Assembly: GCA_963922205.1 (NCBI GenBank)
Contig: CAWUHX010000295.1
Location: 124,001-188,000 of the forward strand
Direction: 5' to 3'
Length of the DNA: 64,000 nt
DNA from: Romanomermis culicivorax
Taxonomy: Eukaryota; Nematoda; Enoplea; Mermithida; Mermithidae
Of this stretch, positions 3-25,098 are shown in pieces; position 1 is the first letter of the stretch; each line of letters starts with the position of its first letter. Below the pieces are notes generated by a model. It saw only the letters and a program-made list of their open reading frames with translations. It did no database searches and had not been told where the DNA came from. The position numbers and the translations under genes are program-made.

Positions 3-2811
3 AGCACGGGTGACGCTCGTCCAGTCCGCCGTTTCCCTTACCGCACCGCGCCCAAGGAAAAGGATCTCATCATACAAGAGGTCAAAGCGCTCCAAGAGAA
101 AGGTATTATTCGGCCTAGCACTTCTCCCTGGGCTACTAACACCGTCTTGGTTCGCAAGAAAAATGGGTCACACCGGATGTGTGTTGATTTTCGTGGTCTC
201 AACGAGGTCACGAAAAAGGATGTCTATCCTCTCCCACGGATTGATGACATCCAGGACACACTCAAAGGTATGAAATACTTCACTACCCTTGACCAGGCTA
301 ACACCTACTGGTCCATCCCTATTGCCGAGGCAGACAAAGAAAAAATGGCGTTTAATACACCTATTGGACTTTACGAGTTCAACTATCTGCCTTTTGGTCT
401 TTGCAATGCCCCTGGGATTCCAACGTCTAATGGACCTGCTTCTTACAGGACTGCAGTGGCGCACTGCACTGACCTATCTCGACGACATCTTGGTGTTCGG
501 GAACTCTCACACCCAGATGCTTGAGCGCCTGACGGATGTGTTTACGCGTCTCCGTCAGGGTGGAATGAAGCTCAGACTGAGCAAGTGCAAGTTTTCGCAC
601 TCTGAGGTAGAATATCTCGGGTACCGCATCTCACAGAAGGGGCTCGAGCCAGACAAAGTCAAATTGGCTGCCGTCCAGGACCTACCCATTCCACAAAACG
701 CTAAAGACATCAAGTCTTTTCTTGGTCTTGTGTCTTATTATAGGCGTTTCATCCCTGGTTGCGCCCGGCTCAGCGAGCCGCTGACCAAGCTCTTACGGAA
801 GGAAGTTACCTTCCAGTGGTCAAAACCTCAGCAATCGGCGTTCGACGAACTCCGAAGGCTGTTGTTGAACCCTCCTGTCCTGCGCCATCCGGACTTTACG
901 AAATTCTTTATACTTCAAACTGATGCAAGCATTTCGGGGATAGGAGCAGTTCTAAGCCAGTTGGACGAAAATGGATACGACCATCCTGTTGCGTACGCCA
1001 GTAGAGGGTTAACAGCAGCTGAGAAAAACTACACTATTACGGAGTTGGAGACTCTCGCTGTTGTCCATTTCGTCAAGCACTTTCGGCCTTACCTCTTTCA
1101 ACATGAGGTGGTCGTTCAGACCGACCACACTGCTGTTAAGGCTGTGTTGGAAAAACCGAACCCTTCGTCCCGGATAGCTCGGTGGGGCCTCGCGTTAGCT
1201 GAATTCAAACTGACTATTCGGCCGCGAAAGGGTCGGTCTAATGGTAATGCCGACGCATTATCAGGCCTTCCTGATCCTAATTCCCTTGCCGGGGAGAGTA
1301 TTGACGATATTCCCCTATACAGACCCGAGGGAGAAGTTATGATGATCTCCGATGGTGCGCAGCGCCTGGCGAACTCATCCCAAAGGACTACCAATGGTGC
1401 GCAGCACCTGGCCAGGTCTGAGTCTTATGCAGAGATATCACAGGACGCGCAGCACCATGACCTTCTCGCAACTCAATTCGAGGATCCGGACTTAGCCTCC
1501 ATTCTTAGGTCACTAAAACCCTACGGTGACCAGAATGATGTTAATGGCTACCACCTGTTGGATAACATCCTTCAGAAGTGGACAGGCGAGTCCAACAAGA
1601 TTGTTGTCCCTCGTTCAATGGTTACTACCATTATTGAGGCTCATCATAACGACATTCTTGCTGGACACTTTGGTGCGAAACGTACCGCAAGGCTTATAGC
1701 CCGTAGGTACCACTGGCATTCCCTCAGTGCGGACGTCAAGTCCTTTTGTCAGCAGTGTGATCTTTGCCAACGGAATAAACCTGCGAGACAAAAGACCCGT
1801 GCAACTCTGAAACCGATTTCCATTACGGGTCCGTTTCATCGAGTCGGTGTCGACTGTATGGGACCAATGACCACTAGTGAAAACGGAAACCGATTCATTG
1901 TAGTTTTCATAGACTACTTTACTAAATGGGTTGAAGCTTTCGCTACTCCGGATATTACTGCGCAAACTATAGCTCGACTTTTTGTTACTCAAATTGTCTG
2001 CAGACATGGGGCACCGCAGATTCTTCAGTCTGATTGTGGTACTGATTTCACGTCCAAACTGATGACTGAAATCACTGCCATTTGTTCAACTAAGAAAATC
2101 CACTCCACCGCTTATCATCCCATGACAAACGGCGAAGTGGAAAGAGCTAATCAAACGCTAGCCACACAGTTACGTATGTATGTCCACCAAGGTCATACTG
2201 ATTGGGATGAACACCTGCCCTACTCTGTGTTCGCTGTCAACATTAGCATGAATGAGTCCACAGGGTATTCACCCTTTGAACTCATGTATGGTCGTACTCC
2301 CATGCTACCTGTCGATGCAGCACTCTCATTCAACCCTCCGGCCCATATCATAGATGTTTCTACTTATGATATGGAGGTCAAACGGCATTTTACCAATGCC
2401 TTGACCTTGATCCAGAGCAGAATTGAGAGATCACAGGCGGCTTTTGCCAGGTCATACGACTGCATGGCAAGAGATGTCTCATACAAAGTTGGGGATCAGG
2501 TGCTCAAACTGCGCACCACCAGCCAATGTGGCCTAACACCTAAATTGCTGCCCATTTATGATGGGCCCTACTTTGTAACGAATGTGGCATATCCCAAAGT
2601 CACCATTCGACTTGAGACTGACCAAGAAGATACTGTGCATGTCAATCAGCTCAGACCCTACGTGTCACCAGCTCAGCCTACAGAAGAAGAGGAGATACCT
2701 TCCACTTCACAGGTCATCGAGACGGCACCTTTGTTGATCCCGTCAACAAATAGAGATTTTACACAAGATCCCATTGACCCACATCTTGATGCGGAGGTCG
2801 CCGACCTGTAA
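3..2811 (+). pseudogene. pol: Element I pol: Ty3/gypsy reverse transcriptase - RNase H - integrase, 5' truncated by window edge
   Basis: The frame is open from base 3 to about 413 and resumes in another frame to 2811, so one frameshift sits at about 410-417 in the RT palm. Visible in order are the RT N-terminal half (VDFRGLNEVTKKD), the RT active site YLDD at about 475-486, RNase H (FILQTDAS, about 905), the integrase HHCC zinc finger (about 1640-1780), and the integrase core with Asp in VDCMGP, Asp in QSDCGTDF and Glu in NGEVERANQ. There is no chromodomain. Element III carries a close paralogue on the other strand. These domains make cDNA and insert it. The copy cannot make an intact polyprotein because of the frameshift. 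Gag, envelope-like and protease parts, if present, lie outside the window. Confidence 0.95.
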
Positions 2812-4698: not shown

Positions 4699-5134
4699 TC
4701 CTCACTCACTGGGAATGAGGGATGGTGCCATTCGGGGAATGGCGTACTGTAGGGGACCCGATTGTTAACCTAAATCCCTTTATTGGCCCTGCCCCTAAGG
4801 GTCTGAGGGCTTTCTCAAATGAGGGTTCTTCCGAGGGAAACTAGCTTAGGGGAGACTCCCACAAATATACCCTCAACAATAATAATAACCCCTGAGAAGA
4901 CTTACTAATCCTCTTCTTAACCTAGGCGGCGATAAGCGACAGGTCCTGGGGTCAAAGCGCAGGGTCCTACGGACAGCGATGAACGGGTACAGGAATCCGA
5001 GCGATTCGGTGTGAGGTAATGCGGCTGCAGATCGGCAGGCGGCGGTATCAAGCATTTCCTGGGGGAGGGCGACGGGGTTCTTTGATCAACGGCGATGGGG
5101 ATGAGTTCCTACGGTCGGGTTACTATAGTGGCAA
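4699..5134 (-). repeat. Distal part of Element III 3' LTR (split by Element II)
   Basis: This is the reverse complement of family A LTR sequence and matches about 29378-29816 of the complete minus-strand LTR. The outermost roughly 280 bp of the LTR are missing, and the break lies exactly at the end of the Element I LTR. The right edge ends in gcaa. The missing continuation (tatatgaaggcc and onward) is found at 15008, on the far side of Element II. Confidence 0.85.
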
Positions 5135-5340
5135 TGTAACGACCAGATTTGGGTGAGGTACTTTACTTCCAAAGGACGGTCGATACGGCGGGAACAATGG
5201 GGGGCCCGGGCTGTATGGTTACAATAAACAACGGATGATCGACGGTCACTTGAACATCGACAATAAAAATGCGTTTCAATTTATAATACGAACGGGGCCT
5301 CGGTTTAAGTTGCTTTCGAACAATTGGCCGCTTGCAAATG

Positions 5341-5350
5341 TATAAAAAGG
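5341..5350 (+). promoter_or_regulatory. Antisense TATA box in Element II LTR
   Basis: TATAAAAAGG stands about 47 bases upstream of the ATG at 5397 and points away from the direction of the retroelement. The identical sequence is at 13738-13747 in the other LTR. Promoter activity is inferred only. Confidence 0.5.
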
Positions 5351-5396
5351 ACGGGGCGAGTGCGGAAGTCAAAAACTTAAAACCACAAGAATAAGA

Positions 5397-5792
5397 ATGA
5401 TCAAATCACGCTTTGCTTCTTCTTTTATACGGCGATTTTGGCCACTCCCTGGGCGTTGCGGGAGGTCGAGCTTCTGTCCATCTTCTTCCGCCAATCGTCG
5501 TTTCCTGCTACACTTTTTATGCTTACTTAGTTACCCCTCTCTAATGCTTTCCTGGTACTGTATGCTTTCTGTGCTTTGCTTGCTTCCTACGGTGGGCTTG
5601 GCCACACCTTTGTGCTTCTGTGCATGCTTCCTGTATCGGTTTATCTGTATACACATGTTTTGTGGGGCCGCCGCTACTGTTACACCTGAGACTACTGTCT
5701 GGCGGGGCTTCTACGTATTTTACTGTGTGCAGGTGTTGTGTACGATTTTTATGGGGGATTACGGTAGCTGTGGAATGTGTAGTTTAGTGTAG
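5397..5792 (+). CDS. Antisense 131-residue ORF inside the LTR of Element II (hypothetical)
   Basis: This is an unrecognised protein read opposite to the retroelement. It has a basic N-terminus followed by Cys-, Leu- and Phe-rich hydrophobic stretches (about residues 38-60 and 65-90), suggesting a membrane or small Cys-rich protein. A TATA box stands about 47 bases upstream and AATAAA signals follow at 5870 and 5933. The frame is intact in both LTRs (also 13794-14189). The two copies differ at about seven bases, six of which change the protein, so there is no sign of purifying selection since insertion. It may be a chance ORF. The combination of promoter, frame and poly(A) signal makes it worth listing. 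Confidence 0.35.
   Translation: MIKSRFASSFIRRFWPLPGRCGRSSFCPSSSANRRFLLHFLCLLSYPSLMLSWYCMLSVLCLLPTVGLATPLCFCACFLYRFICIHMFCGAAATVTPETTVWRGFYVFYCVQVLCTIFMGDYGSCGMCSLV
5422..5429 (-). promoter_or_regulatory. Sense TATA box in Element II LTR
   Basis: TATAAAAG on the minus strand, conserved at 13819-13826 in the second LTR, is placed suitably to start the genomic transcript of the element. It lies inside the antisense open frame, so transcripts from the two TATA boxes would overlap. Confidence 0.5.
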
Positions 5793-5972
5793 GTTCTAGG
5801 GGAACAGCTGCCGTTTGTGTAAATTAATTAGGGCATCTTAATTGGGCTACCAGGGTGTGAACGGATCAAAATAAAGTACTTCACGTAATTTTGTAGGAAT
5901 GTTTGGGTGTGAATCCCAGACACCCTTGAGACAATAAAATGTGAAAATAAAATAATATCTAATAAATGTCTA

Positions 5973-8900
5973 TCACATACAGTATGCTACATATTTACAG
6001 TACCGCTTTAGCAGGTACGTTACATTTTCCTCCTTCCGGAGTTGAACGTCCTCGTTCAAGGCTTTCGAGGTTGAGGAGAGGTGGGGGGTAGATTTGTTAG
6101 CTGCTTTCCGAGTGTAGAAAGGGGTTGTCTCGTTTACATGCACCGTAAATGTGGTATCCTTATGGGGGTGTTTGAGTGTAATGTTGGGGTACATGAAATT
6201 CGTAACTGTATAGGGCCCGTTTTGGCCAGGGAGGAATGTGGGAGTCAACCCTTGTTTACACAAATGATTTTTGTAGAGAATAAGATCACCTGCCTTGTAA
6301 TGTATGTTCTGAGCATGCTTGTTATACTGACAGGTAAAGTGGGCTTGGGCTTTTTGCAAACTTTTCTGCACGGTTGAGAGTGCTTCTGTAAAATGCGATT
6401 TTACACGAAGGGCATAATCGTCTAAATCAACCATGTAGGATGTGGGGAAAAAATTTAAAGCTGCATCTGACGGCAGATTAGCTTGCCTACCGTGGAGTAA
6501 TTCAAATGGGGGATACGAAGTGCTATCATTTTTATGAATGTTGATCGAAAAGGCGGCATATGGGAGATAAGTATCCCAATCAGTGTGATTTGAATTGATG
6601 TACATGCGGATATGGGTGGCTAAGGTTTGGTTGCAGCGCTCAACTTCTCCATTTGCAATGGGATGGTATGGGGCGGTATGAATTTTCTGAGTGTTGCATA
6701 AACTGGTGATCCGTGAGAAGAGATCGGATACAAAATCGGAGCCACGATCACAATGGATGATTTTTGGGGACCCATGACGGCAAACAATTTTGGTTACGAA
6801 TAGCTTGGCAATAGTGGCTGCAGTGATGTCAGGGGTCAGGAATGCCTCTACATACTTTGTGAAATAATCGATGAAGAGGACAATGAATCAGTTGCCATCT
6901 TCAGTGAGGGGTAACGGTCCCATGCAATCAACACCGACTCTATCAAATGGGCCAGTCGGCTGATATGGTACCAAGTTTGCATGCACTTTGTGTCGGAGGG
7001 CTTTCTGTGTCTGGCATGGGTGACAAGTTTTGCAGTAACGTTTGATATCACGGCTCATTAGGGGCCAAAAATATTTTTGTCTGAGCAAGTGTAAAGTTTT
7101 TCGGGCTGCAAAATGACCTGTGAATTTGCTGTCATGATGAGAGGCAATGAGATGCTGGACTTGTGACTTGGGAATGTATAGTTTTGCTTGTTTGTTGACT
7201 ATACCGAAGAGGATGTTTTGATGCACTGCAAATTTGATCAGAGTAAAGGGGTGTTTTTGGGCGATTTTTGCTAGAATGCTTTTGACAGTTGGATCAGTGC
7301 GTTGGAGTTCGGCGAAATTTTTCTGTTGTTCTTCTTGTTCAGTTGCTTCAGCTTCCAAAACCGAATTGATAGTGGATATTTCAGGGCGGGTTTCTAATTG
7401 CTCAATATCAAAGGATTGTTTTGCTGTCTGTGAGGGGAATCGAGAAACTGCATCTGCGTTGAGGTTAGCAGTGCCTTTCTTAGGTCGAATGTCTAGCTGA
7501 ATTCCGGAGAGGGCTAATCCCCAACAGGCAATGGGAGGGGATGGGTTTTTCTTCTGTAGAACTGCTTGAACTGCTGTTTGGTCAGTGTGTACAATAACAT
7601 GTTGCTGGAAAAGGTAGGGGCGGAAATACTTGACAAACTCAACTACTGCAAGGGTTTCCAACTCAGTTATCAGGTAGTTGCGTTCTGCGGGTTTCAATGT
7701 GCGGCTCCCAAAAGCAATGGGGCGATCCTGACCTTTACTATCTAGCTGACTGAGAATGGCGCCAATTCCGAGTTTTGAGGCGTCAGTTTGCAGAATAAAC
7801 AGTTTTGTGAAATCGGGGTGCTGCAGTATTGGGGCATGAATGAGTAATTCTTTTAGCTTAGTGAATGCATTTTGCTGTTCAGGGCCCCAGGAAAATTCTG
7901 AGTTCTTTTTGAGTAGCCATGTGAGTGGGCTAGAAACTTGAGAGCAATATGGGATGAATCTGTGATAATATGAGGGTAGGCCAAGGAATGACTTAACTTC
8001 TCTTGAGCTTTTGGGTGTGGGTATGTCATAGATGGCCTGTACCTTATGGGGATCTGGTGAAATGCCTTGCTGAGAAATGACGTGGCCTAAGTATTGGACT
8101 TGGGGCTGGCAGAATTTGCATTTTTGTATGTTTAGTTTAAGGCCTGCTTGTGAAAATCGGGCAAGAATAGTGTCTAAACGTTCCAGCATTTGGGCATGGG
8201 AATCTGCGAATACCAAAACATCGTCGAGATATACAAGGCATGTGTTCCATTGCAGACCCGAAAGAATAACATCCATTAACCTTTGGAATGTGGCTGGGGC
8301 ATTGGTAAGACCGAAGGGGAGGTAGTTGAATTGATGCTGGCCGGCTGAGCAATTAAAGGCCGTTTTTTCTCTGTCTGCTTGTGTTATGAGGATGGAGTAA
8401 TATGCATTGGATTGGCCAAGGGACGTAAAATATTTCATTCCACGTAGGGTGTCTAGAATTTCGTCTATGCGGGGCAGGGGGTATGTATCTTTTTTGGTTA
8501 CTTTGTTGAGGCCTCTAAAATCAATGCATAAACGATGGCCTCCGTCTTTTTTGGGAAATAAAACTGTATTGGCACACCATGGGGAATTGCTTTGGCTTAT
8601 GACACCTGCTGCTGCGAGTTGCTCAACCTCTGCTTGTATGATTTGCTTTTCTTTTAGGGAAGTCCGATAAAGTTGTCTACGTACGGGTTGGGAGCCATTG
8701 GTGTCAATGGTATGTGAAACAAGGGTGGTTCTACCTACGTCCATTTTGGATTTAGCATATAATGTAGGATACTTCAATAGGGCGCGTAGGAGTTGTGTTT
8801 TTTCTGCTTCTGCGAGGTCACTGAAGGCTAAATTAACATTTTCTCTTAACCATGTGAATGTATCAAACGGGTTGGGCTGGTTTTGCGTTGAAGGGGTTAG

Positions 8901-9242
8901 ATTAGCGGGAGCATTTTGTTTTGGGATGTAACATGAGACTGTACCAATGCATGTTCCAGGGTAAAGAATTTGGGCTGTTTCTTGTGTGTTCAGGACGAAT
9001 ATGTGTATGCGACTGTTTTGATTTTCAGAGACACAAGCTGCAAAATGGACTTTGGGATTCTGTTTGGGTTTCGGGGTGAATTCAAGCTGTTTGACCTGTA
9101 AGTACGATTTGGGCAAGGGGACAGTGAATTCAGTTACTGTACGTGGTGGTAATTCTAATTTCTCATCTAAATAAGTTCCACCACGGGTCGAAAGGGGGCT
9201 ATATTCTAGGCCATCCATCACAGGGTAGTATGACATTGCCAA
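5973..9242 (-). pseudogene. pol: Element II pol: RT - RNase H - integrase
   Basis: A 784-codon open frame (9242 to 6888) covers the linker after protease, the RT (LCIDFRGLNKVTKKD; intact YLDD at about 8231-8220), RNase H (FILQTDAS) and the integrase HHCC finger plus the first catalytic Asp (VDCMGP). It ends at a TGA at 6888-6890 where Element I has an Arg codon. The frame then carries on through the rest of the integrase core and the C-terminal domain (6605 to 5973), running through the polypurine tract into the LTR. The start overlaps the protease frame by 44 bases at an ATGG tandem duplication (about 9205-9212), which looks like a 4-bp insertion that shifted the frame. The order RT, RNase H, integrase is that of Ty3/gypsy. 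Confidence 0.93.
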
Positions 9243-9732
9243 ATTTGACCTGAGATTTTTGATTGTTGATAGTGTATTCCGAAAATTGACTGAGAAAGTT
9301 TTTGCCTAGAAGGATGTCTACTGTGCAATCTTTTTGGACATGGACCATGATTGTTTCCTGGATTGTTTGGGCTGTCACTGTGACAAAAGTGGTCCCTACA
9401 AAGTGAATTGGGAGATTATTTGCTGCTTTTGCTTGGACTAGCGGGGGTTTCATGTCTAACTGCAAAATTTGAGCGATGCTTGAATCAATGAGGGAGTAGA
9501 CTGCACCAGTATCAATCATGCCTTTTGTGATTAACTTGCCGTTAAGTGTGATTGGAATATGAGGGGTATGCTTCTCAGGTACATTTTGGGGTGACTTGTT
9601 TGATGCAGATTGCTGAATGTGATTAATGAGTTCGATTGCAGGAGTTCGGGGGGTATCAATATCGACGAGGACGTATTTCTGCTGCGTTTGTGCCCCACCA
9701 CGATTAGCTAATTCTAAGAGGGCATGGCCCAA
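9199..9732 (-). pseudogene. Element II aspartic protease (retropepsin)
   Basis: The active-site motif is MIDTGAVYSLID (Asp-Thr-Gly at about 9513-9505), with the second conserved block DILLGKNFLSQF near residue 140. This enzyme would cut the polyprotein. The frame lies between the envelope-like transmembrane tail (9828) and RT, and continues upstream without a methionine to an in-frame TGA near 9750. It runs out of frame at the duplication shared with the start of pol. It is clearly homologous to the second protease-like domain of Element III (18970-19953). Confidence 0.85.
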
Positions 9733-9827
9733 TGATGGGGGATGGTCTCATGTAAATGTCTGTTGTTTGATGGTATTTCATACGCGTGTTCATTTGTGGC
9801 ATGATGTTTTGGAGAGGGGAAATATTT

Positions 9828-10508
9828 TCAAAGAACGAGAAAAGAATAAAAGACGCCTGCAATAACTACAGTAATAATGGCTAGATTGATAATGATTTGG
9901 AGGGGTCCTTTGAGCAAATTGTTTAATCCGTCCGTGAGACTTTGGGTGGTACCGATTACTACATGTTCTATGCCTTGACCGGCGCCAGAGAGGGTATTTC
10001 CGAGTGCTTGGACAGTGCCTGAGATCATGTTGTAAACCGTATCGGAATTGAGAGACATTTGGGTGGTGTAATTGACGAGTTTTTTGACAACATTTTCGAG
10101 TGTGTGAGTTTTGTAAATGTATTGTTTCAAAAAGAGTAAGTTGGTTGAAATAGTTGCAAGTTGATCATGAAAAATGGCGGGGGTATTAAAATGGAAAAGG
10201 GAAAAATTTTGGTTCCAGACAATTTCTAAAGGTAAATTTGTGACATGCGGGGATCCTGTTTCACGGACCCATGTATTATTCTGTTTGTAAAGGGCTACAT
10301 GCATGTGATGGCAGTCAACGGTTTGTGAGAAAGGGGTCAAATGGTTGCCTCCTGGATTTGAAAACATGAGTTCGGTTCCTACGAGAATGGGCAAAAGTTT
10401 GTAGCATGTTTGGTTGATTTTGTGGTTGTAAAAGATTTTAGATGCATTTATCTGCTTGCAGGGCCAGACTGTGAGGGCTTCTCCTGTGAATTCTGCTATG
10501 ATGTCGGT
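9828..10508 (-). pseudogene. Element II envelope-like protein, C-terminal part with transmembrane anchor
   Basis: This continues the reading frame of the upstream gag-env ORF after a single in-frame TGA (10509-10511). It contains a Cys/Trp-containing ectodomain segment, a region conserved in Element III (PLEIVWNQNF and KQYIYKT against LELIWKQCF and KQYVYKT), a Gly/Ser/Thr-rich amphipathic stretch, and a strongly hydrophobic C-terminal segment of about 24 residues (LQIIINLAIITVVIAG...). The whole looks like a fusion-protein stem and membrane anchor. It ends right before the protease frame. Confidence 0.75.
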
Positions 10509-12515
10509 TCAATGTAGGAATGCACGTGCTCCAAGGGTTGCATCAAGGCGCAAAATTTGCCATATGAGATCAAGGTGACACTGTGCCTGTCTACATAATT
10601 CATTCCATACGTTTTTGAAATTTTGAATTTCGAATTCCTGGATTTTGTCTGCTAGATAATTTAGTTTCGCGTTAATGGGTTCGAAATCATCAAAATCGTA
10701 GAGTGTAGTATGGGTTTCATTGGTTTTTGGGGTTAAAAATGCGTTACCATGTGGGGTGCTTTTGTCTAATTGTATGATAATGCTTTGTTCGGTTAGAATG
10801 CTGTCTTGGATTTCTGGGTAATTGGGGTTCGAAAAAACTGTATTTTTAACCGAGAATGCACCTTGTAGCTCTTCTATTATCATGTGTGTTTGCGTGAGTT
10901 TGATGGGATGTGTATTTTTGTATTCGAAAGGGCATAAGTTTTCAAATGCTGTTTCATTCCAGATAATGGATCCGTCGGCTGTTACAAAATGACCTGATGT
11001 CAGTTTGCATGACCCTAGGTCACCTAATGTACCTGTCATAGATTTTCCATTCCAAGATGCTATTTGTCCTATTTCTATGATGATGTTAGTGACCGAAGTA
11101 CAATGGTCTGTACAACACCATGTGTATTCTAGGCTTAGGGAGTTATTTGTTGACCAAAATCCTGGTTGGGTTTCGTACAATTTTTGACCGTTGTATTCTT
11201 TGTCTATAATGATTGCCTTACAAACATGTGGGGTTAGATTTTGCATTTCGGTTTGGTCGAAGACAATACCTTTTGATCCAAAAAATCCTGTATTAGTACA
11301 AATTTTGCATTTGCGAACACTGCATTTGTATGCGTCTGTAATGTGGGGCTTAGTGGAGGGGATATAGATTTTTCCGAATGTCTGTACGGGTTTGTCTACT
11401 GTTGAAGGGGGCATGCATGATACAAGTTTTGGTATACTGACTGAGTGACCGCTCAATGAAGTTCCACACATCTGAAATTGGGCACTACACGATGTGGGGA
11501 TTATTATACAAAGAAAAATGCAAAACATCGGCCGATAGAATGTTTTAGTGGAAGCGGCCGGGCACTGTATGTTTTCGTTGTGGCCAGTTTGGTGTTGGGG
11601 CTTTTGGTGTTGTCGTTTTGCGATTTTGAGCTGGGGGGGTGGCCAGTTTGCAATCTGAACAGTCTGTAAAAGTTTGGAATTTGAGTTATGGGATGGGGTT
11701 TGGACTTGCTTACTTGCGGGGGTCGGTAGCAATGTTTGGCGGGGGCGAAATTGGTAGGGTTCAGGGGTCAGGCCGTGTAAGAGGGATAATAAGTTGCGAC
11801 CTGTTTTCGATGGGGTATCGGGGGCGGTGGGCGGCGTAGTGTCTTGCTTTCGGGGGATCTTGGAGCCTACGGGGATGGTGGGCGGCGATTTTTCGATCTT
11901 TGCGGCTTCAGGCGTGGGGGGTGGTGACATGGCGCACCAATCGGGTACGTTCAGATCAAGGACGTATTCGTCACTACGGCGATGGGTGTTGGGCATGATA
12001 GTTCCTAAAGTAGTCTGGGGGCCGTTAGTTATGGCGGGTAATTTTGAGTAAAATGCGGGGTCGTCAATGTCCATGAGGGGTTGGGGTTGCCTGTACTCAA
12101 TGCAATTTTGAATATTACGACTCTGCTGATTTGGGCAATACCTGCTTGTATGACCTCTCTGCTTGCATATAAAACATTGAAAATTTGAGTAGGGTTTTGA
12201 AAGGCAGTTATCTGATCTATGTCCTGTTTGGGAACAGTGGATGCATCGGCTTTTACAATCACGTGTACTGTGATTATTATGGAAACAGATTTCACATGAT
12301 TTTCGGGTGCCTACTGATTTACAATTACGAGCTACGTGTCCGATTTGTCCACACTGGAAGCATGTGGGTTGCCTGGGGGTGGTATTGTTCCTGTAAGCAT
12401 TATTCCTGCTGAAAGTATTGTTACTGAAATTGTTGTAGCTACTCTGTTGTGGGCGTTGAGGTTTTTGTTTGATCTGCAACTGTAAATCTTTTACTTGTTG
12501 TTCTAACTGATGCAA
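10509..12515 (-). CDS. Element II fused nucleocapsid (four zinc knuckles) and envelope-like ectodomain
   Basis: A 668-codon continuous frame. Residues 52-127 hold four CX2CX4HX4C zinc knuckles (starting at C52, C74, C91, C114), the nucleic-acid-binding part of Gag. A Pro-rich linker follows (about 195-320), then a hydrophobic segment at about 329-345 that looks like an internal signal sequence, then a Cys-rich ectodomain. That includes CTNTGFFGSKGI (about 406-417) and YTWCCTDHC (about 464-472), both conserved in Element III. The double-Cys pattern recalls phlebovirus-G2-like envelope proteins of nematode retroelements; I infer this without a search. The fusion of nucleocapsid to envelope in one frame, upstream of protease, is unusual. 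The frame ends at a TGA where Element III has Arg. Confidence 0.8.
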   Translation of the reverse strand: MHQLEQQVKDLQLQIKQKPQRPQQSSYNNFSNNTFSRNNAYRNNTTPRQPTCFQCGQIGHVARNCKSVGTRKSCEICFHNNHSTRDCKSRCIHCSQTGHRSDNCLSKPYSNFQCFICKQRGHTSRYCPNQQSRNIQNCIEYRQPQPLMDIDDPAFYSKLPAITNGPQTTLGTIMPNTHRRSDEYVLDLNVPDWCAMSPPPTPEAAKIEKSPPTIPVGSKIPRKQDTTPPTAPDTPSKTGRNLLSLLHGLTPEPYQFRPRQTLLPTPASKQVQTPSHNSNSKLLQTVQIANWPPPQLKIAKRQHQKPQHQTGHNENIQCPAASTKTFYRPMFCIFLCIIIPTSCSAQFQMCGTSLSGHSVSIPKLVSCMPPSTVDKPVQTFGKIYIPSTKPHITDAYKCSVRKCKICTNTGFFGSKGIVFDQTEMQNLTPHVCKAIIIDKEYNGQKLYETQPGFWSTNNSLSLEYTWCCTDHCTSVTNIIIEIGQIASWNGKSMTGTLGDLGSCKLTSGHFVTADGSIIWNETAFENLCPFEYKNTHPIKLTQTHMIIEELQGAFSVKNTVFSNPNYPEIQDSILTEQSIIIQLDKSTPHGNAFLTPKTNETHTTLYDFDDFEPINAKLNYLADKIQEFEIQNFKNVWNELCRQAQCHLDLIWQILRLDATLGARAFLH

Positions 12516-13594
12516 AAGGTCCTGTTGGTCTGTATTTTTGGTGAGGAAAAGATGGGTTCGGGTTTTGGGGGTATGAAGGGAAGGGCGTTGGACTTTAACT
12601 CATTTCTAAGGATTTGCTTTTCAATGTAAGCTGCTTCATCTGACATTTCTTTTAGAGTTGCCAACCTTCTATACTTAATTGCTTCTCTGATTTCGTTTTG
12701 CATACCTTCTACAAAGAGGGGTTTTATGATCATTTGTCATGCGTCTGTGTTAAAGTTAGGGTAGGCGAGGGTTGCGAGATGTTCTAGATCAAATAAGAAT
12801 TCAGTTACTGTTTCTGATCGCTTTTGCTTTCTTTCGCATAAGAATTGTTGATGTAGCTCATTATCTCGATTGTTTGGGAAAAATGCCTGTAATGCGACTT
12901 TATACTGCTCGTATGTGTGGGGAGGGTTTTCGGAATTTGCTAAACTTTTGAATTTTGCTGACGCGGCTCCTCCTAAATGAATTTCTAAACAAGCCAACTT
13001 TAACTGTACGTCTGTATCTTTCATGCCTTGGAGTGCCATGAATTGTTCTAATCTTTTGTTCCTTTCACCAAAATGTTGGGTCACGCCGCCCGTGAATACT
13101 GTAGGCTTCGCCTAGAAATTATTTGCCATGTTATTACGAATGTTTCTGTTCTTAGATCGTCTATTAGGGTAGGGTTTACTGTATTTTGATTCAATTTGTG
13201 TGCGTAGGGTACGAAAATGTTCCGAAAATAAATCATTTATCTGCTCTCTAACGATTTCTCCTAAATGATCTTGCGTTTGGTGGGTCATTCTTGGTTTACA
13301 CTGGGATTCCTGCTTAAATGCTTCAATTTTTGCTTCATGCTGTATTCGTTTAAATGTATGGCTTAATGTTTCGTTGGAGGGGATTTCCAGTTTGCTTTCT
13401 ACGAATACTGTCTTACTGTAGGAAATGATTACTACTGTATTATCTATAGCTTCTAAATGCCCAGATAAGAGTACACCTAATTGGGGGCAGGGAGTTCCAG
13501 TGGTTAACGTAACGGTACAGTCACCAAAATATGTAACGACCAGATTTGTGTGAGGTACTTTACTTTCAACCAATGGTCGATACCGCGGGAACAA
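12503..13594 (-). pseudogene. gag: Element II gag: matrix/capsid region
   Basis: One frame runs from 13594 to 12503, interrupted by TAG at 13112-13114 and TGA at 12737-12739. The capsid (13084-12737) aligns with Element III gag: FMALQGMKDTDVQLKLACLE, and later ERKQKRSETVTEFLFDLEHL against DRLQKPTESAIVYLEHL. It then shifts by -1 near a run of five A (about 12540-12550) into the zinc-knuckle frame. Upstream, the frame stays open through the primer-binding region into the LTR. The residues before the first internal Met still align with the region upstream of the Element III ATG, so the true start is uncertain. Role: virus-like particle shell. Confidence 0.85.
13508..13526 (-). promoter_or_regulatory. 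Putative primer-binding site of Element II
   Basis: On the minus strand the 5' LTR ends in CGTTACA at 13532. Five bases later TGGTGACTGTACCG begins. TGG complements a tRNA 3' CCA, as expected for a primer site. The tRNA is not identified. Confidence 0.5.
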
Positions 13595-14421
13595 CGGGGG
13601 GCATGGGCTGTATGGTTACAATAAACAACGGATGATCGACGGTCACTTGAACATCGACAATAAAAACGGGTTTCAATTTCTAATATGAACGGGGCCTCGG
13701 TTTAAGTTGCTTTCGAACAATTGGCCGCTTGCAAATGTATAAAAAGGACGGGGCGAGCGCGGAAGTCAAAAACTTAAAACCACAAGAATAAGAATGATCA
13801 AATCACGCTTTGCTTCTTCTTTTATACGGCCATTTTGGCCACTCCCTGGGCGTTGCGGGAGGTCGAGCTTCTGTCCATCTTCTTCCGCCAATCGTCGTTT
13901 CCTGCTACACTTTTTATGCTTACTTAGTTACCCCTCTCTAACGCTTTCCTGGTACTGTATGCTTTCTGTGCTTTGCTTGCTTCCTACGGTGGGCTTGGCC
14001 ACACCTTTGTGCTTCTGTGCATGCTTCCTGTATCGGTTTCTCTGTATACACATGTTTTGTGGGGCCGCCGCTACCGTTACACTTGAGACTACTGTCTGGC
14101 GGGGCTTCTACGTATTTTACTGTGTGCAGGTGTTGTTTACGATTTTTACGGGGGATTACGGTAGCTGTGGAATGTGTAGTTTAGTGTAGGTTCTAGGGGA
14201 ACAGCTGCCGTTTGTGTAAATTAATTAGGGCATCTTAATTGGGCTACCGGGGTGTGAACGGATCAAAATAAAGTACTTCACGTAATTTTGTAGGAATGTT
14301 TGGGTGTGAATCCCAGACACCCTTGAGACAATAAAATGTGAAAATAAAATAATATCTAATAAATGTCTATCACATACAGTATGCCACATATTTACAGTAC
14401 TGCTTTAGCAGGTACGTTACA
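13532..14421 (-). repeat. 5' (central) LTR of Element II, 890 bp
   Basis: It has the same ends and length as 5135-6024. It is shared between the full internal region to its left and the integrase remnant to its right, so two tandem copies once existed. It repeats the antisense ORF (13794-14189), both TATA boxes and the AATAAA signals. Confidence 0.9.
13794..14189 (+). CDS. Antisense 131-residue LTR ORF, second copy (hypothetical)
   Basis: This is the same length and start as the ORF at 5397-5792, with six amino-acid differences. Here the TATA box is at 13738-13747. See that entry for description and doubts. Confidence 0.35.
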   Translation: MIKSRFASSFIRPFWPLPGRCGRSSFCPSSSANRRFLLHFLCLLSYPSLTLSWYCMLSVLCLLPTVGLATPLCFCACFLYRFLCIHMFCGAAATVTLETTVWRGFYVFYCVQVLFTIFTGDYGSCGMCSLV

Positions 14422-14862
14422 TTTCCCTCCTTCTGGAGTTGAACATCCTCGTTCAAGGCTTTCGAGGTTGAGGAGAGGTAGGGGTAGATTCGTTAGCTGC
14501 TTTCCGAGTGTAGAAAAGGGTTGTCTCGTTTACATGCACCATAAATGTGGTATCTTTATGGGGGTGTTTGAGTGTAATGTTGGGGTACATGAAATTTGTA
14601 ACTGTATAGGGCCCGTTTTGGCGAGGGAGGAATTTGGGAGTCAACCCTTGTTTACACGAATGATTTTTGTAGAGAATAAGATCACCTGCCTTGTAATGTA
14701 TGTTCTGAGCATGCTTGTTATACTGACAGGTATAGTGGGCTTGGGCTTTTTGCAAACTTTTCTGCACGGTTGAGAGTGCTTCTGTAAAATGCGATTTTAC
14801 ATGAAGGGCATAATCGTCTAAATCAACCATGTAGGATGTGGGGAAAAAATTTAAAGCTGCGT
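14422..14862 (-). pseudogene. Integrase C-terminal fragment from a second, mostly deleted Element II copy
   Basis: The segment is nearly identical to 6025-6470: YMVDLDDYALHVKSHFTEAL, LILYKNHSCKQGLTP and the polypurine tract before the LTR. On its right it breaks at ctg/ttttgtagg into LTR sequence. It is the 3' end of a tandem partner whose gag, env and most of pol were deleted. Confidence 0.9.
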
Positions 14863-16215: not shown

Positions 16216-18969
16216 TCAGTTTGTTGATGGAATCAACAATGGTGCCGTCTCGATGACCTGGGAAGCGGAAGGTACCTCCTCTGCTTCAGTAGGCTGAGCA
16301 GGTGACACGTAGGGTCTGAGCTGATTGACATGCACAGTATCTTCTTGGTCAGTCTCAAGTCGAATGGTGACTTTGGGATATGCCACATTCGTTACAAAGT
16401 AGGGCCCATCATAAATGGGCAGCAATTTAGGTGTTAGGCCACATTGGCTGGTGGTGCGCAGTTTGAGCACCTGATCCCCAACTTTGTATGAGACATCTCT
16501 TGCCATGCAGTCGTATGACCTGGCAAAAGCCGCCTGTGATCTCTCAATTCGGCTCTGGATCAAGGTCAAGGCATTTGTAAAATGCGGTTTGACCTCCATA
16601 TCATAAGTAGAAACATCTATGATATAGGCCGGAGGGTTGAATGAGAGTGCAGCATCAACAGGTAGCATGGGCGTACCACCATACAAGAGCTCAAAGGGTG
16701 AATATCCTGTGGACTCATTCATGCTAATGTTGACGGGGAACACAGAATACGACAGGTGTTCATCCAAATCAGTATGACCTTGATGGACATACATATGTAG
16801 CCGTGTAGCTAGCGTTTGATTAGCTCTTTCCACTTCTCCGTTTGTCATCGGATGATAAGTGGTGGAGTGGATTTTCTTAGTTGAACAAATGGCAGTGATT
16901 TCATTCATCAATTTGGACCTGAAATCAGTACCACGATCAGACTGAAGAATCTGCAGTGCCCCATGTCTGCAGACAATTTGTGTAACAAAAAGTCGTGCTA
17001 TGGTTTGCGCAGTAATGTCCGGAGTAGCAAAAGCTTCAACCCATTTAGTAAAGTAGTCGATAAAGACTACAATAAAACAGTTTCCACTTTCACTAGTGGT
17101 GATTGGTCCCATACAGTCGACACCGACTCGATGAAACGGCCCAGTAATGGTAATCCGTTTCAGAGTAGCAGGGGTCGTTTGTCTCGCAGGTTTATTCTGT
17201 TGGCAATGATCACACCGCTGACAAAAAGACTTGATGTCCCCACTGAGGGAAGGCCAGTGGTACCTGCGGGCTATAAGCCTCGCCGTACGTTTCACACCAA
17301 AGTGTCCAGCAAGAATGTCGTTATGGTGAGCCTCAATAATGGTAGTAACCATTGATCGAGGCAGGACAATCTTGTTGGACTCGCCTGTCCACTTCTGAAG
17401 GATGTTATCCAACAGGTGGTAGCCATTAACATCATTCTGATCACCGTAGGTTTTAGTGACCTAAGAATGGAGGCTAATTCCCGATCGTCAAATTGAGTTG
17501 CGAGAAGGTCATGGTGCTGTGCATCCTGTGATATCTCTGCATAAGACTCAGACCGCGCCAGGTGCTGTGCACCATCGGTGGTCCTGTTGGATGATCTCGC
17601 CAGGCGCTGCGCACCATCGGAGATCATTTGAGATGTTCTCGCCAGGCGCTGAGCACCATCAGAGATCATCATAATCTCTCCCTCGTGCCTGTATAGGCGA
17701 GTATCGTAGATACTGTCCCCGACACGGGAGTTAGGATCAGGAAGGCGTGATAATGCGTCAGCATTACCATTAGACCGACCTTTTCGTGGCCGAATTGTCA
17801 GTTTGAATTCAGCTAACGCGAGGCCCCACCAAGCTATCCGGGCTGAAGGGTTGGGTTTCTCCAACACAGCCTTAACAGTGGTGTGATCAGTCTGAATGAC
17901 CACCTCATGTTGAAAGAGATAAGGTCGAAAGTGCTTGATGAAATGGACAACAGCGAGAGTCTCCAACTCGGTAATAGTGTAGTTTTTCTCAGCTGCTGTT
18001 AACCCTCTACTGGCGTATGCAACAGGATGGTTGTATCCATTATCATCTAACTGGCTCAGAACTGCTCCTATCCCTGAAATACTTGCATCAGTTTGAAGTA
18101 TGGAGGATTTCGTAAAGTCTGGATGGCGCAGAACAGGAGGGTTCATCAACAGCCTTCCGAGTTTGTCGAACGCCACTTGCTGAGGTTTTGACCACAGGAA
18201 GGTAACTTCCTTCCGTAAGAGCTTGGTCAGTGGCTCGCTGAGCTGAGCGCAACCAGAAATGAAACCCCTATAGTAAGACACAAGACCAAGAAAAGACTTG
18301 ATGTCCTTGGCATTCTGTGGGATGGGTAGATCCTGGACGGCAGCCAATTTGACTTTATCCGGCTCTAGTCTGTTCTGTGAGATGCGGTACCCTAGATATT
18401 CTACCTCAGAGTGCCAAAACTTGCACTTGCTCAGTCTGAGCTTCATCTAACCCTGAAGAAGACGCGTAAACACATCCGTCAGGCACTCAAGCATCTGGGT
18501 GTGAGAGTTCCCGAACACCAAGATGTCATAGAGATAGGTCAGCGCCGTGCACCACTGCAATCCTGTGAGAAGCAGGTCCATGAGACGTTGAAACATCCCA
18601 GGTGCATTGCAGAGACCAAAAGGCAGATAGTTGAACTCGTAAAGTCCAATAGGCTTATTAAACGCCGTTTTCTCTTTTTCTGCCTTGGGTTATAGGTATA
18701 GACCAGTAGGCATAGCCTGATCAAGGGTAGTAAAGTATTTCATACCCTTGAGTGTGTCAGGATATCATCAATCCCTGGGAGAGGATAGACATCCTTTTTT
18801 GTGACCTCGTTAAGACCACGAAAGTCCACACACATCCAATGTGACCCATTTTTCTTGCGAACCAGGACCGTATTAGTAGCCCAGGGTGAGGTACTAGGCT
18901 GAATAATGCCTTTTTTCGGAGCGCTTTGACTTCATGTATGATGAGATCCTTTTCCTTGGGCCCGGTGCG
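16216..18969 (-). pseudogene. pol: Element III pol: RT - RNase H - integrase, degenerate
   Basis: The integrase (17412-16216) is intact from the HHCC finger to the C-terminus, with SDRGTDF and NGEVERANQ visible. The RNase H part and RT thumb are in another frame (18446-17292), with a 1-base loss near 17452 joining them. The RT N-terminal half (18447-18969) is broken by several frameshifts. The catalytic YLDD reads YLYD (about 18535), so the polymerase site is lost. A three-fold GAQRLAR-type repeat lies between RNase H and integrase (about 17540-17670) where Element I has two units. The products would copy and integrate the element, but this copy cannot. Confidence 0.93.
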
Positions 18970-19953
18970 CTAAGGGAAACGGTGGACTGGGCGAGCGTCA
19001 CCTGTGCTGATCTCGTGGTGCACGAGGTCAGTGGAACCTGTGTCCTTTTCATCAATAGCATTGAGGTCAGTGAATGCGACCAGTAGGTCGAGCAATGCCA
19101 TTTTATCCTGTGAGGAGATATCTGAAGATATCACAGCATTGGCTTCAACCGACTTACGGTCAAGAATGGTATCAGACTTGACCACCGATCCCTGTGAGGA
19201 ATCAGTGTGCATCTGCACATCACCGATGGTCGTGTGCGGGTAGAGAACCACGGAGTGTCTACTCGGGTTAACTACCTGTAGGGGTATGGGACCATTACTC
19301 ACAGCACTCACAGTACCAGCAAAGTACACACTGCGTTGCTGTCCCAAAAGAGGCTTAGGAAAGAAAGCTACCTCGGGTACAGTTGCGTATAATGCCGGTA
19401 CAGGTGCAGTAAATTGTGTCAATGAGCGAGGCTCAAGGACAATCAACTCCTGCAAGGGTAGTGCCCCACGAGTGGAAGGAGGATTGTGAATGAGGCCCTC
19501 ACAGGGAACCCAAAGTTCCTTGAACTGAAGAAAGGATTTCTCCCAGTTCAAGCTGACACAATTGAACCATCTGAGGAAGTTCGTCCCCAAGACTAGCTCA
19601 GCCGAACAATTCTCTCGAACTTGGACCTGAATCTGTTCGGAGACATCAGCCACTGTCACCGTGAGGTAGGCAGCTCCTAGCAGTATAATCGAAGACCCAT
19701 TGGCTGCTATGGGGCGAGCCCTAGTTTCTGTGAGCACCAAGTCGGGTAACTGAGCGGCCAACTTGTGATCCAGGAGCGAGAAAACTGCTCCTGTATCAAT
19801 TAGAGCTTTGGCCTCCACCCAATTGTTCAGTAGAACTCTGATATGAGGGGTCCGCATTTCAGTAGGGTAGAAAGCTGACACTACATGACCTGGGTCAGGC
19901 ATGGAGTCATCAAAACTCGACCCTGGCGCATCAGTTCGCCTCGGTATTGGCAA
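18970..19953 (-). pseudogene. Element III second retropepsin domain plus protease-RT linker
   Basis: The active-site motif is ALIDTGAVFSLLD (Asp at about residue 53), with the second block AELVLGTNFLRWF near residue 120. These match the protease of Element II, so this is probably the true protease. A linker follows (STRGALPLQELIVLEPRSL...) leading into RT, ending HHEISTGDARPVHRFP, which is where Element I enters the window. The frame is the same as 21123-19963 with only a TGA between, so both protease-like domains were once on one polypeptide. It ends at TAG (18970-18972). Confidence 0.85.
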
Positions 19954-19962
19954 ACCAGTGTG

Positions 19963-21123
19963 TCAGAGTAATCCTACCAGAGCATAACCAACTGAGGCTT
20001 CCAGATTGGTCCCAGGGGTGGGATGAACCTGAACAGTAAGTATATGATCGGATCTTTCTCCTGAGCTCTGAGTAGCTCCTAATGATTCCACCTCAGCATC
20101 AGAGAGTGGTGGCACCTCTAGGACGGGGGATGCAGGGGCATCAGAATCACTAGGCTCACGAAAACAGCCTTTCTCTAGTGTGACCGGAGAATCTCCAGGC
20201 GGGAATCGAGGACAGTTTGACCCTGACCTGGCCATGGAATGACCGCTAGCCCATCTAGAAGAGGTCCTACTTCCTCTGGTTGACCCACGGGATGAGGCAA
20301 TGGAGGAAGCTTGCGAGGGTGGCCGAGAAAGGGAGGAAGTCCTTGATCGTGATCGAGACCCGGACCTGTGGGAGGCCCTTGATAGTGAACGTGTGTTCTC
20401 CCACCAGGGTTCGATCTGATCAATCTCAGCTGCTGTCAACAGAAGTGGCAGTTCTACCGCATTCAATCGACAGACATTTTGTTGGTAGTCAAAGGTAATA
20501 TTCTGGAATTGTTCTAAAAAGTCCAATCCAAGAATCAGATCGACCGGTGCCCAGAAAGGAGACGTAGTCTTACACACATAAAGATGTATATCCACTCGTG
20601 TGTGTGGCTGACGGGTTCCAGGCAACATTATCTCATACGGTCCTGAAAGGAGAGTATGAACGGCTTTACCATTGATACTCATCAATGGATTAAAGTCGTG
20701 ATGTTGCTGGAAAGCCATCCCTGCCCTCGGACTTTCTTTAATCAAGGCTTTGTGAAGGCGTTGACTAATGATGGTCCGTGGACAACCAGTGTCAAGGAAA
20801 GCAGGAGTTTCCTTGTGGTCAACCAGTACGACAAAACACGGAGTGATCCTGTCTAACTGAGTTGGCACATCATTCTGTACGTAATGAAAACCTACCCAAT
20901 GCTGAACTTTCTGGAGGAGGTTCAAGGGAGAGTACTGGCTAACAAACCAAACCTGTCTTTTTCGCAGGCTGTAACTGAGGTAATAGGAGACCCCAACGTA
21001 GATGAGAAATCCTGTACCGGCGAGCACTGCCAGCATGATGAGTGTGTTAAAGATCAACTGCACTGGTCCACTCAAAAGAGACTGTAAGCCCTGTATGAGG
21101 TTGTGCTGCTGACCAGTAATCAC
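19963..21123 (-). CDS. Element III envelope transmembrane tail fused to a first retropepsin-like domain and Arg/Ser-rich linker
   Basis: A 386-codon open frame. Residues about 20-50 are a hydrophobic anchor (LIFNTLIMLAVLAGTGFLIY). Residues about 95-215 are retropepsin-like: FLDTGCPRTIIS with Asp-Thr-Gly at 111-113 and the second block DLILGLDFLEQF at about 195-206. Residues about 245-300 are Arg/Ser-rich. An acidic segment follows. The frame continues past one TGA (19963) into the second protease domain. Element II has only one such domain. Whether the first domain cleaves, or is a retired copy with another role, cannot be told from sequence. Confidence 0.75.
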   Translation of the reverse strand: MITGQQHNLIQGLQSLLSGPVQLIFNTLIMLAVLAGTGFLIYVGVSYYLSYSLRKRQVWFVSQYSPLNLLQKVQHWVGFHYVQNDVPTQLDRITPCFVVLVDHKETPAFLDTGCPRTIISQRLHKALIKESPRAGMAFQQHHDFNPLMSINGKAVHTLLSGPYEIMLPGTRQPHTRVDIHLYVCKTTSPFWAPVDLILGLDFLEQFQNITFDYQQNVCRLNAVELPLLLTAAEIDQIEPWWENTRSLSRASHRSGSRSRSRTSSLSRPPSQASSIASSRGSTRGSRTSSRWASGHSMARSGSNCPRFPPGDSPVTLEKGCFREPSDSDAPASPVLEVPPLSDAEVESLGATQSSGERSDHILTVQVHPTPGTNLEASVGYALVGLL

Positions 21124-21207
21124 GTGGTTTGCTGCCAGACCAACACCTTCCAGTGAGGCTTTGATGTCAGTCCCTACCCATGCAACCGCTTGATAAATAG
21201 TATCTGG

Positions 21208-22972
21208 TTAGAGGGATAGACCAGCGGTATAATTTACCAACCGGTTTAAGACTGCTTCAATTTGCTCAGTCTTGTAAACGTATTGTTTAAAGAAAGCAAA
21301 ACTTGAAGGGGTCATTGCCAACTGATTGTGAAAGAGCGCAGGAGCGTCAAAGTGAGTGACATTGAAGCACTGTTTCCAAATCAGTTCAAGCGGAATGTGG
21401 CTCACATGGACCGTGCCAGACTAAGTAAACCAGCCCGAGTGATTTCAGAAAATCCCCGTAAAGTGATGGTCACACCGCACTTTTGGGCTGAATTTAGTGA
21501 GATCTGGGCCAGCGGGGGTGGCAAAATAAATGGTACCGCCAACCTACCTGTACGGGTAGATACTTGTAACAGGTGTCCCCCACTCGGTACAAATGGTAGA
21601 CATGAGTGGCGTTGACCTTTTGACATGGCCATATCATCAGTGCTTCACCCGTAAATTGGGCCATCAGATCATTCCTTTGCAGGAATGCCCGGGCTCCTAG
21701 TGTGGGGTCAAAACGAAGCAACTGCTAAGTCATATCAAGGTAGCGTTGAGCGTGAGAACACAACTCAAGCCACATGAACCGAAAATTGTTAATCTTTGAT
21801 TCCTTGATCTGCTGAGCCAGGTAGTTCAGTTTGGCATTGACGGGGTCAGGGACAGAGTCCTTCGCCAATCCGAATAACCTTTGGGCCAAATTAAATCTTC
21901 CGTGGATGCGTAGAAGAAGACCCTGATCCATTCGCACTGTGTTCAACCGGAGGTCAGGACACAACCGAAACACGCGAGAGTTTCCCAGGATCTTCAGGGC
22001 AACCTGCAAATCATCCATGATGATATGGTTCCCTGATACAGACGCAGTGTAATTACCCTGAGGTCGATAATGACACTGTGCTGTAAGGTTTGCGGCAGGC
22101 CAAACAATTACCCCCTCAAGAGTAGTGCATTGACCTGCAGTGGGACTGCATCCACCTACATCTCCTAAGGTACTTAGAGCTGTAGTGCCATCCCAGGAAG
22201 CGACCTGTCCCTCCTCGATGAAGAGGTTAGTCACTGTCTTGCAGGCGTCATTGCAGCACCATGAGTACATCACCTCTTGTGTTTGGTTAGTGCTATAAAA
22301 GCCAGGACGTATCTCCACAAGCTTTTGTAAACCAAACACCTTTGTGCGATGTGCCAGTGTACACGCCGCAGGCGCTAGATGCTGAGTGGTAATGAAGTCT
22401 GCAGTAATGCCCCTAGATCCGAAAAAACCAGTGTTAGTACATACCTTATGGTTTGGCAAAGTACATTGCCATGCTAGAGTAGTGATTGGATCAGAAATAG
22501 GTACATATACTGTAACATTCATGCGTCATGGACTCCATGAAGATTTTGGTGGTTTGCATTCAACTTTTTGAGGTAACTCAAGTGGATGACCCCTTCTTGA
22601 AAGACCACAGCATTGGTATTGAGTAGCATGTATTGTGGAGCTCATTCCTAAGAACAGTAGTGTCACAAAGGCCCAATTTATTATATAAAAACTATTTACA
22701 AACAGTGCTCGTAAATATACACCAAAATTTACAGTTTTCACCCGTCTGGCGGCTTCATTCTTCGTCGTCATCATCATCGGACGATACCAGGTCCCCTCTG
22801 GGGAAGTCGATGACCAAGCCTCCGCATGGGTGGACTTCGCAAAGAACGCCAATCTTCGGGGACTGCGGGACGGTTGCCGTCGGAAATGGTGACGCCTTGG
22901 TGACGCTGATGTTGTCATTGACAGCGCACAACGGTTCTCCAAAGGGGTTGGCGACTGGTTGCTGTTGAGCAA
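21208..22972 (-). pseudogene. Element III envelope-like ectodomain
   Basis: This is homologous to the envelope region of Element II. It has a hydrophobic signal-like segment before QYQCCG (about 22640), CTNTGFFGSRGI (about 22440), YSWCCNDAC (about 22265), and the stem region LELIWKQCF and KQYVYKT (21400-21270). It is broken by in-frame stops at about 22526, 21725 and 21208 and by a frame change between about 21540 and 21405. It sits between Gag and protease, as in Element II. The role is inferred to be a membrane glycoprotein for cell entry or particle transfer. It is not functional as it stands. Confidence 0.8.
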
Positions 22973-23326: not shown

Positions 23327-25098
23327 TCACGTCAGTGACGGATGAGGAATCTGTAAATGAGAAATCATTAAAGCCGGTGACTTATAAGGATATCTGATTT
23401 TCAGACCTGAAATGCCAGAAACAGAAGGTAGTTTACCTATCAGATTCATCGATTCCAATTGACCGACGACCTCCAACGCGGAGTCCGTAGGAATTCCAGG
23501 CGACAGTCCTTGGTTGATAAAACGGGCCGGGGGTGCCGGTGTACCTTCTGTCAGTCGATACGACGCGATTACGCTGATGTCGCCAGGCGTTTTCAGTGTC
23601 GTTGAGGGGTTTACGTTGACCGGCGTCACGTATTTCAGTGGTGGCGGCAGAAAGGCTGACGATGGAGTCCATGCCGAAACCACTGCGGCAGCTGAAAATC
23701 CAATAGTGATTACACAGACAGGATAACACAGTTGTGAGTGATCTGCCAGATGTTCAGCCAGAACTTCATCATCCAGATCAAACAGATTTGGATGAAGAAG
23801 ACCGTCAGTAGCCCCTACAGCATTATTTTGCTGTGGAGGTGACCAATATTGGTTCCCTGTCCCGTGAGGAGTTGGATTAGCATAACCCCAAAAACTTCCA
23901 CTTGCCCCCTGAGGAGAGTAACCAGAATTACCAAAGTTAGTCTCACCAGGCAATGTCGAAATTCGATTTGGGCAGGCCGAAGCCCTGTGCACTTGTAACT
24001 TTTGGCAATGCGGGCAAGTTCTGTCGCATCGGTTGGTTGGGTGCGCCCTTGTCGACAAAAATAGCAACAGCTGGCACCGGTGGTGGTGGCAGTGCTAGGG
24101 CCAACGCTATCGGGATGTTGGGCCCGGCAATTAGCGTCTTTGTGGGTGCAGCGTCCATGGTAGGAGCACATCTGTAAATGTGCCCCTGACGGGTGGTCGC
24201 AGGCGGTCTGGACACGCATCGACGGCGTCGATGACGGCGTCAAATTTCTCGAAGGCGGCGCCGATTGCTGAGCTGTAAGTCGGGCAACGTGACCCGTAAG
24301 CCGGGCCATCTCCGATTGTAAATGTCGAATTTCGTCGGACGGCGTTACGGACGGATGTTGAGCGGTGCCCCTTTGATTGGACATTGACCTGACATTGTCG
24401 GCAGTCCTTTGTTCTGAAGAGAAAACAGCATTAGATGGGGCAGTATACCTAATCTCATCCTGAAAAATTTGCGATTCCGCGTAACAGGCTGCTTTGAGAG
24501 TCTCTTCAAGAGTTGTGAACTCCCTGAACTTAATACTATCTCGAAGGACTGGTTTCAACCCTCTCAGAAAGATAGGTTTTACAATTGAATCCCTAATGTC
24601 AGTTGCGAGATCTGGATAAGCCACCCTGGACAGTCCCTTAAGGTGCTCAAGATAGACTATCGCGGACTCAGTCGGCTTCTGCAGGCGATCCTGGATCAAC
24701 TGCTGATGCAGATCTGAGTCACCCCCTACTGGAAAGTTTTTCCTCAGAAAAGCCGTGAACTCTTTGTGGCGGGTAGGCTGCGGAGTACCACTGCTAAAGT
24801 CCTGGTAGGATGCGAGAGCAGGACCTGTTAGGCAAGACTCCAGAAACGCGATTTTATATGCATGATCCGTTTCTGTTACCCCTTGAAGTGTAAAGAAACG
24901 GGTCAAGTGTGATATAAAATCAGTTATGGACTCACCAAAAGCACCTGAAAAGGCAGGAGGGGCCATGAAGCTGGACACAGGAGGGTGCCTTCTGCCATTC
25001 ATAGCCTCCAGCTTTTGGTTGAGCGGTCGAAGGGCATTCTCAAATGCAGCTTGGACCTTATTCTCAATCTGTGAAGGTAGATCAACTTCTGACTTCAT
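23327..25098 (-). pseudogene. gag: Element III gag with frameshifted zinc-knuckle region
   Basis: Frame one (25098-23815) carries a capsid-like region, FFTLQGVTETDHAYKIAFLE and later DLHQQLIQDRLQKPTES, then CSYHGRCTHKDANC. Frame two (24067-23327) continues the protein after a -1 shift near 24050. A CX2CX4HX4C knuckle spans that shift (first two Cys in frame one, His and last Cys in frame two), and a second finger CPHCQKLQVHRASAC follows wholly in frame two. The tail is Pro/Ser/Thr-rich. Upstream of the ATG the frame is open for about 150 bases and still aligns with Element II, so the true start may be farther up. Function: capsid and RNA binding. Confidence 0.88.

Follow-up and report, generated by a model that had tools for sequence, protein, structure and literature searches.

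According to the ICTV profile of the Metaviridae, the envelope protein (Env), where present, lies downstream of integrase (PMC7879559), the position that an earlier note on the DNA studied here had also given as usual. A different order is found in Element II, a long terminal repeat (LTR) element on the minus strand of a 64,000-nucleotide stretch of the nematode Romanomermis culicivorax (contig CAWUHX010000295.1, positions 124,001 to 188,000; hereafter the window), in which Env stands upstream of the protease and not after integrase, despite a Ty3-type pol. Errantiviruses and other env-carrying Ty3/gypsy elements likewise combine a Ty3-type pol with an Env, but the sources list gag, pol and env of these elements as genes (PMC7879559; PMC13172572), with some mosquito gypsy regions said to carry type III glycoproteins (PMC13172572).

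Atlas virus, a hookworm belpaovirus encoding a single Gag-Pol-Env polyprotein with a captured RNA-virus glycoprotein, resembles the family described here in being a nematode endogenous element with a single uninterrupted Gag/Pol/Env frame, but its Env is class II and phlebovirus-like with the GC-like part forming the last 498 residues of the Gag-Pol-Env order (PMC9094657), whereas here Env is internal and class III-like. Anakin, a mosquito BEL/Pao element with a chuvirus glycoprotein, shares the presence of a Monjiviricetes-type glycoprotein in an LTR element; a position between Gag and protease is not stated in the part of its description available (PMC7642597). It differs in its BEL/Pao pol, the reverse transcriptase (RT) here being nearest Ty3 among PDB sequences, the only ones compared (E 1.5e-94), and Pfam scans returned RT_RNaseH, RT_RNaseH_2, Integrase_H2C2 and rve with no BEL/Pao-named family. 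Cer1 of Caenorhabditis elegans, likewise a Ty3/gypsy element of a nematode, has Gag and Pol in one long frame and carries between pol and the 3′ LTR a protein, CERV, that is made from a spliced mRNA and is unlike an envelope (PMC10309623; PMC3315495). A 2023 survey reported no clear Gypsy capture of jingchu/mononegavirus-type glycoproteins and, in nematodes, two copies with simple repeats on either side (PMC10084718). No description of env between gag and protease or pol was found in the literature on Ty3 env, chuviruses, Romanomermis, Metaviridae or nematode envelopes, with a prior account possible in Chary and Hayashi 2025 (eLife 108449), a paper known through those citing it; the literature on gag-env order gave one match, concerning spumaretroviruses.

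Layout of Element II and its intact copies

Element II lies between two LTRs located by blastn with the family LTR, and its order on the minus strand is capsid, zinc knuckles, signal-like segment, ectodomain, anchor, protease, RT, RNase H and integrase. Profile and tblastn matches bear out this order as the earlier note had read it (Table 1), and the four CCHC zinc knuckles claimed there were counted by pattern in an intact copy (L009) and are also readable in the window frame. The further claim that nucleocapsid and ectodomain share one 668-codon frame (12515-10509) stands in that the frame contains the zinc knuckles together with the larger part of the ectodomain. The window copy is disrupted by in-frame stops and frame changes, so the evidence for the order and for a single chain comes from other copies.

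The v2 assembly of R. culicivorax, a mermithid parasite of mosquito larvae, is described as 359.1 Mb in 595 scaffolds (PMC10879605), and the search covered 359,112,060 bases in 595 contigs. Counts from it are lower bounds weighted toward good copies, and all env-bearing loci were located via an env or a protease match, so that the survey covers elements selected in this way. Among 150 protease places scored out of 2987 candidates (identity 93-99%), 69 fall within frames that run for 2409 codons or more without a stop, providing the intact copies of like order that the earlier note had proposed to look for. The same holds for 40 of the 74 best-scoring env places (of 4221 candidates), all 74 of which match the full query and 73 of which have no internal stop. 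The order in the stop-free frame of these other copies is the one given above for Element II, with no interruption from capsid to integrase.

Frame content was read from 12 five-prime pieces, spanning leader, gag and env into the protease, and from seven three-prime pieces of different copies, which run 3666 nt from the protease to a stop; all 19 were picked for frames of at least 2484 codons, so the openness of their frames is a selection criterion rather than a survey result. In all seven three-prime pieces, 31 nt with a purine tract separate the pol stop from the 3′ LTR, which leaves no room for an envelope after pol, and no copy with env in that position, which the earlier note would have counted against its reading, was found. 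Family copies have inserted recently, with LTR pairs of 846-916 bp that are 99.3-100% identical in the six copies compared and 4-bp target-site duplications flanking all six. Such duplications beside LTRs, together with a pol ordered protease, RT, RNase H and integrase, are Metaviridae features.

Two side observations concern the copies. The longest open frame among the 74 scored env places, 3612 codons, holds env at C122:529106-530887 (G000), and copies occur in pairs or triples about 8.4 kb apart on one strand of contigs C149, C2, C81, C26 and C180, as if arranged head-to-tail with shared LTRs.

The envelope protein: resemblance, topology and selection

The Env ectodomain resembles class III fusion glycoproteins of the Monjiviricetes/gB type, both by profile and by predicted fold. 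The Monjiviricetes_fusion family (PF24664) matches all 16 Env members, with an E-value of 5.4e-19 in the intact copy and of 4.8e-5, below the curated cut-off, in the window fragment, and the only other Pfam families reported for Env were BDV_G and Glycoprotein_B. The Env model has a gB-like fold with a long central helix, in a comparison that covers only model residues 25-428 well and barely probes the anchor region. The Cys-rich region thus matches viral fusion glycoproteins and not a non-envelope domain, the outcome the earlier note had listed as telling against it, and the Phlebovirus_G2-type profile suggested there gives way to a class III-like one. Errantiviruses have an F-like (class I) Env.

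A first AF2 model built from six sequences was poor (pLDDT 47.9) and was discarded. A single-sequence search of the PDB with Env gave no match and scans of IMG/VR gave no relative; a GTDB scan gave one 57-residue match of 30% identity in a bacterial metagenome-assembled genome (L034), which was taken as chance. The sole match of a profile search with six Env sequences was an R. culicivorax protein (P0001), and the fold matches do not rank donor viruses.

Topology was surveyed in 16 sequences, several of them from one family. The ectodomain measures 519-571 residues with 15-17 cysteines and 5-9 N-glycosylation motifs, and hydrophobic segments lie both before and after it. Lysine and arginine are more frequent after the anchor than before it in 16 of 16 (25-residue windows) and more frequent before the signal segment than after it, again in 16 of 16 (unequal windows of 25 and 15 residues). 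This asymmetry, with the hydrophobic segments, predicts that Gag and Pol are cytosolic and Env is outside.

Env is under purifying selection, with a constraint about that of the enzymes. Summed pairwise dN/dS across 12 copies, from gag to protease, was 0.104 for gag, 0.179 for the zinc-knuckle part, 0.352 for the linker, 0.067 for signal plus ectodomain, 0.261 for anchor and tail and 0.032 for the protease, and across seven copies, from protease to integrase, 0.034 for the protease, 0.037 for RT-RNase H and 0.060 for integrase, all in copies selected for long open frames and so biased toward intact ones.

Occurrence beyond Element II

The arrangement recurs in divergent elements. The window holds a second element of the same domain order (25041-16270), with 3018-codon frames among its relatives, and a third that crosses the left window edge, with gag, a partial env and protease placed in that order just outside (on L035, gag 2343-3545, env 3929-5055, protease 6151-6519). 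At all 36 env-selected loci (L037-L072) env is followed directly, on its own strand, by the protease; these are 35 places, L044 and L061 being one and the same, and one of them (L047) is the second element of the window. After dereplication the env sequences make up about eight R. culicivorax families, which differ from one another by more than 30%.

Four database proteins of 31-40% identity also have env before protease. The 2293 residues of P0004 include a zinc knuckle and a fusion glycoprotein, followed by protease, RT, RNase H and integrase. P0003 joins a gag match that is below cut-off (E 0.0017) to env and protease, P0002 shows env, protease and RT, and P0005 has a weak protease match (E 0.006) between its env and RT. 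Distances between env and between protease sequences correlate (Mantel r 0.85, p 0.0002, 12 sequences, with two close pairs contributing), as expected if env was inherited together with pol.

Several further features were seen. The protease-RT stretch (window 9242-8559, and likewise P0002-P0004 and L021) gives weak matches, near or under the cut-off, to a spumavirus protease family and, in the window, to a family of herpesvirus dUTPases too. Both LTRs of Element II hold a 131-codon open frame antisense to the element (5397-5792 and 13794-14189, plus strand), and the integrase tail of another copy (14456-14911) adjoins the 5′ LTR at 14421. Two tRNA matches lie on the plus strand at 53499-53570 and 53770-53841.

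Table 1. Features of Element II and of the second and third elements, in window positions.
Feature	Position	Strand	Evidence
Element II, 5′ LTR (TGTAACG...CGTTACA)	13532..14421	-	blastn with family LTR, 90% identity over 899 columns; LTR end motifs
Element II, 3′ LTR	5135..6024	-	blastn with family LTR, 90% identity
Gag, N-terminal and capsid part, broken in window copy	12545..13288	-	tblastn 90% to intact copy L009; Retrotrans_gag E 2.4e-5 in 13084-12740
Nucleocapsid, four CCHC zinc knuckles	12135..12362	-	zf-CCHC E 8.5e-8; coordinates hand-counted from open reading frame (ORF)
Env: signal-like segment, ectodomain, anchor, tail; interrupted in window copy	9750..11531	-	tblastn 94% over 594 aa to L009
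Env membrane anchor, directly before protease	9831..9884	-	last 18 residues of ORF 9828-10394, hand-counted; hydropathy 2.78 in L009
Retropepsin	9250..9729	-	tblastn 94%; gag-asp_proteas E 9.7e-9 in 9732-9199
RT	7896..8555	-	tblastn 96%; RVT_1 3e-34 in 9242-6888
RNase H	7476..7895	-	tblastn 96%; RNase H profile 5e-37 in 9242-6888
Integrase	6084..7202	-	tblastn 94%; Integrase_H2C2 2e-20 in 9242-6888
Second element, Gag, divergent, same domain order	24448..25041	-	tblastn 33%, E 2e-33; Ty3_capsid below curated cut-off
Second element, Env between Gag and protease	20926..22681	-	tblastn 39%, E 3e-97
Second element, protease	19492..19860	-	tblastn 40%, E 1e-26
Second element, RT, RNase H and integrase	16270..18856	-	tblastn
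Third element, RT, RNase H and integrase	156..2700	+	tblastn

A predicted membrane-threaded polyprotein and its alternatives

The simplest reading of these data is a membrane-threaded Gag-Env-Pol polyprotein, one chain passing the endoplasmic reticulum (ER) membrane twice. Gag would be made in the cytosol, and the first hydrophobic segment, after the zinc knuckles, would act as an internal signal threading the ectodomain into the ER, with signal peptidase releasing the N-terminus of the ectodomain. The second hydrophobic segment would return the chain to the cytosol, where protease, RT and integrase would be made, the protease then cleaving the cytosolic linkers. Gag and Pol would in this way arrive at the membrane of Env, and no spliced env message or gag-pol recoding would be required. 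The flavivirus polyprotein is laid out similarly, its single membrane-threaded chain carrying capsid, signal, glycoprotein, anchor and enzymes, a likeness of layout only as the proteins are unrelated. The earlier note had proposed that Gag and envelope were made as one chain; the shared frame is present in other copies and takes in Pol as well, and translation as one chain is what we infer from the sequences, together with the topology, cleavage, fusion and infectivity. Judged as a single explanation, it is probable that Element II is a decayed copy from a young Ty3/gypsy-type family of high copy number, in which a single frame of about 2409 codons encodes Gag, Env and Pol and is expressed as such a threaded polyprotein.

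An unlikely alternative, and one that would remove the problem of equal amounts of Gag, Env and Pol, is that the mid-frame Env is handled by splicing, either of an in-frame intron that removes env to give Gag-Pol or from leader to signal to give an Env-led mRNA, the single frame keeping the products in register. In Cer1, the extra protein is made by way of splicing (PMC10309623). Acceptor-like matches occur near codons 20, 189, 287, 604 and 626 in 9-12 of the 12 five-prime pieces, and donor-like GTATGT near the LTR start (in the 3′ LTR copy) and once in pol, each in all seven three-prime pieces, but no GTRAGT or GTATGT match is common to at least six of the 12 five-prime pieces (most of the 5′ LTR through protease, the LTR start excluded), a consensus scan of this kind being weak evidence that settles nothing either way.

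It is also rather improbable that the class III-like protein no longer serves infection and acts within the worm, for example in releasing vesicles or in germ-line spread from cell to cell, the element passing on by vertical inheritance only. The endogenous life of the family and its high copy number (150 or more places, 93-99% identical) are in keeping with such a role, and we know of no particle; against it, ectodomain length, the cysteines and the anchor are conserved between families, in the way a functional fusogen would be.

That a dead glycoprotein insertion is being copied with the element, Env being a passenger, is very hard to sustain, for while the window copy is itself broken, the best-scoring env places are full length and nearly all free of stops, env sequences that differ by 33-69% between families are kept, and the dN/dS of its ectodomain contradicts this unless it is an effect of copy choice. 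An artefact of assembly or nesting, which the tandem copies might suggest, can practically be dismissed given the same order in 12 five-prime pieces and 35 further places on many contigs, target duplications at six of six copies and the same order in proteins from other sources.

The membrane-threaded polyprotein bears on a wider proposal, for and against which we see the balance as even, that enveloped reverse-transcribing viruses of Ty3 type would form a deep lineage, rampant in a mermithid nematode and also found in other sources, whose members would be built from one such chain. Tethering of capsid and enzymes via Env would mean that neither gag-pol recoding nor env splicing is needed, and, if true, this would be a third layout of retro-like viruses beside gag-pol-env genes and Gag-Pol-Env polyproteins. 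The family documents a Ty3-type element with a jingchu/mononegavirus-type glycoprotein, and a lineage that is conserved, under selection and recently mobile, and whose Env sits within the frame upstream of its own protease, suggests a further way to unite capsid, envelope and enzymes. The threading, cutting and balancing of a Gag-Env-Pol chain thereby become testable.
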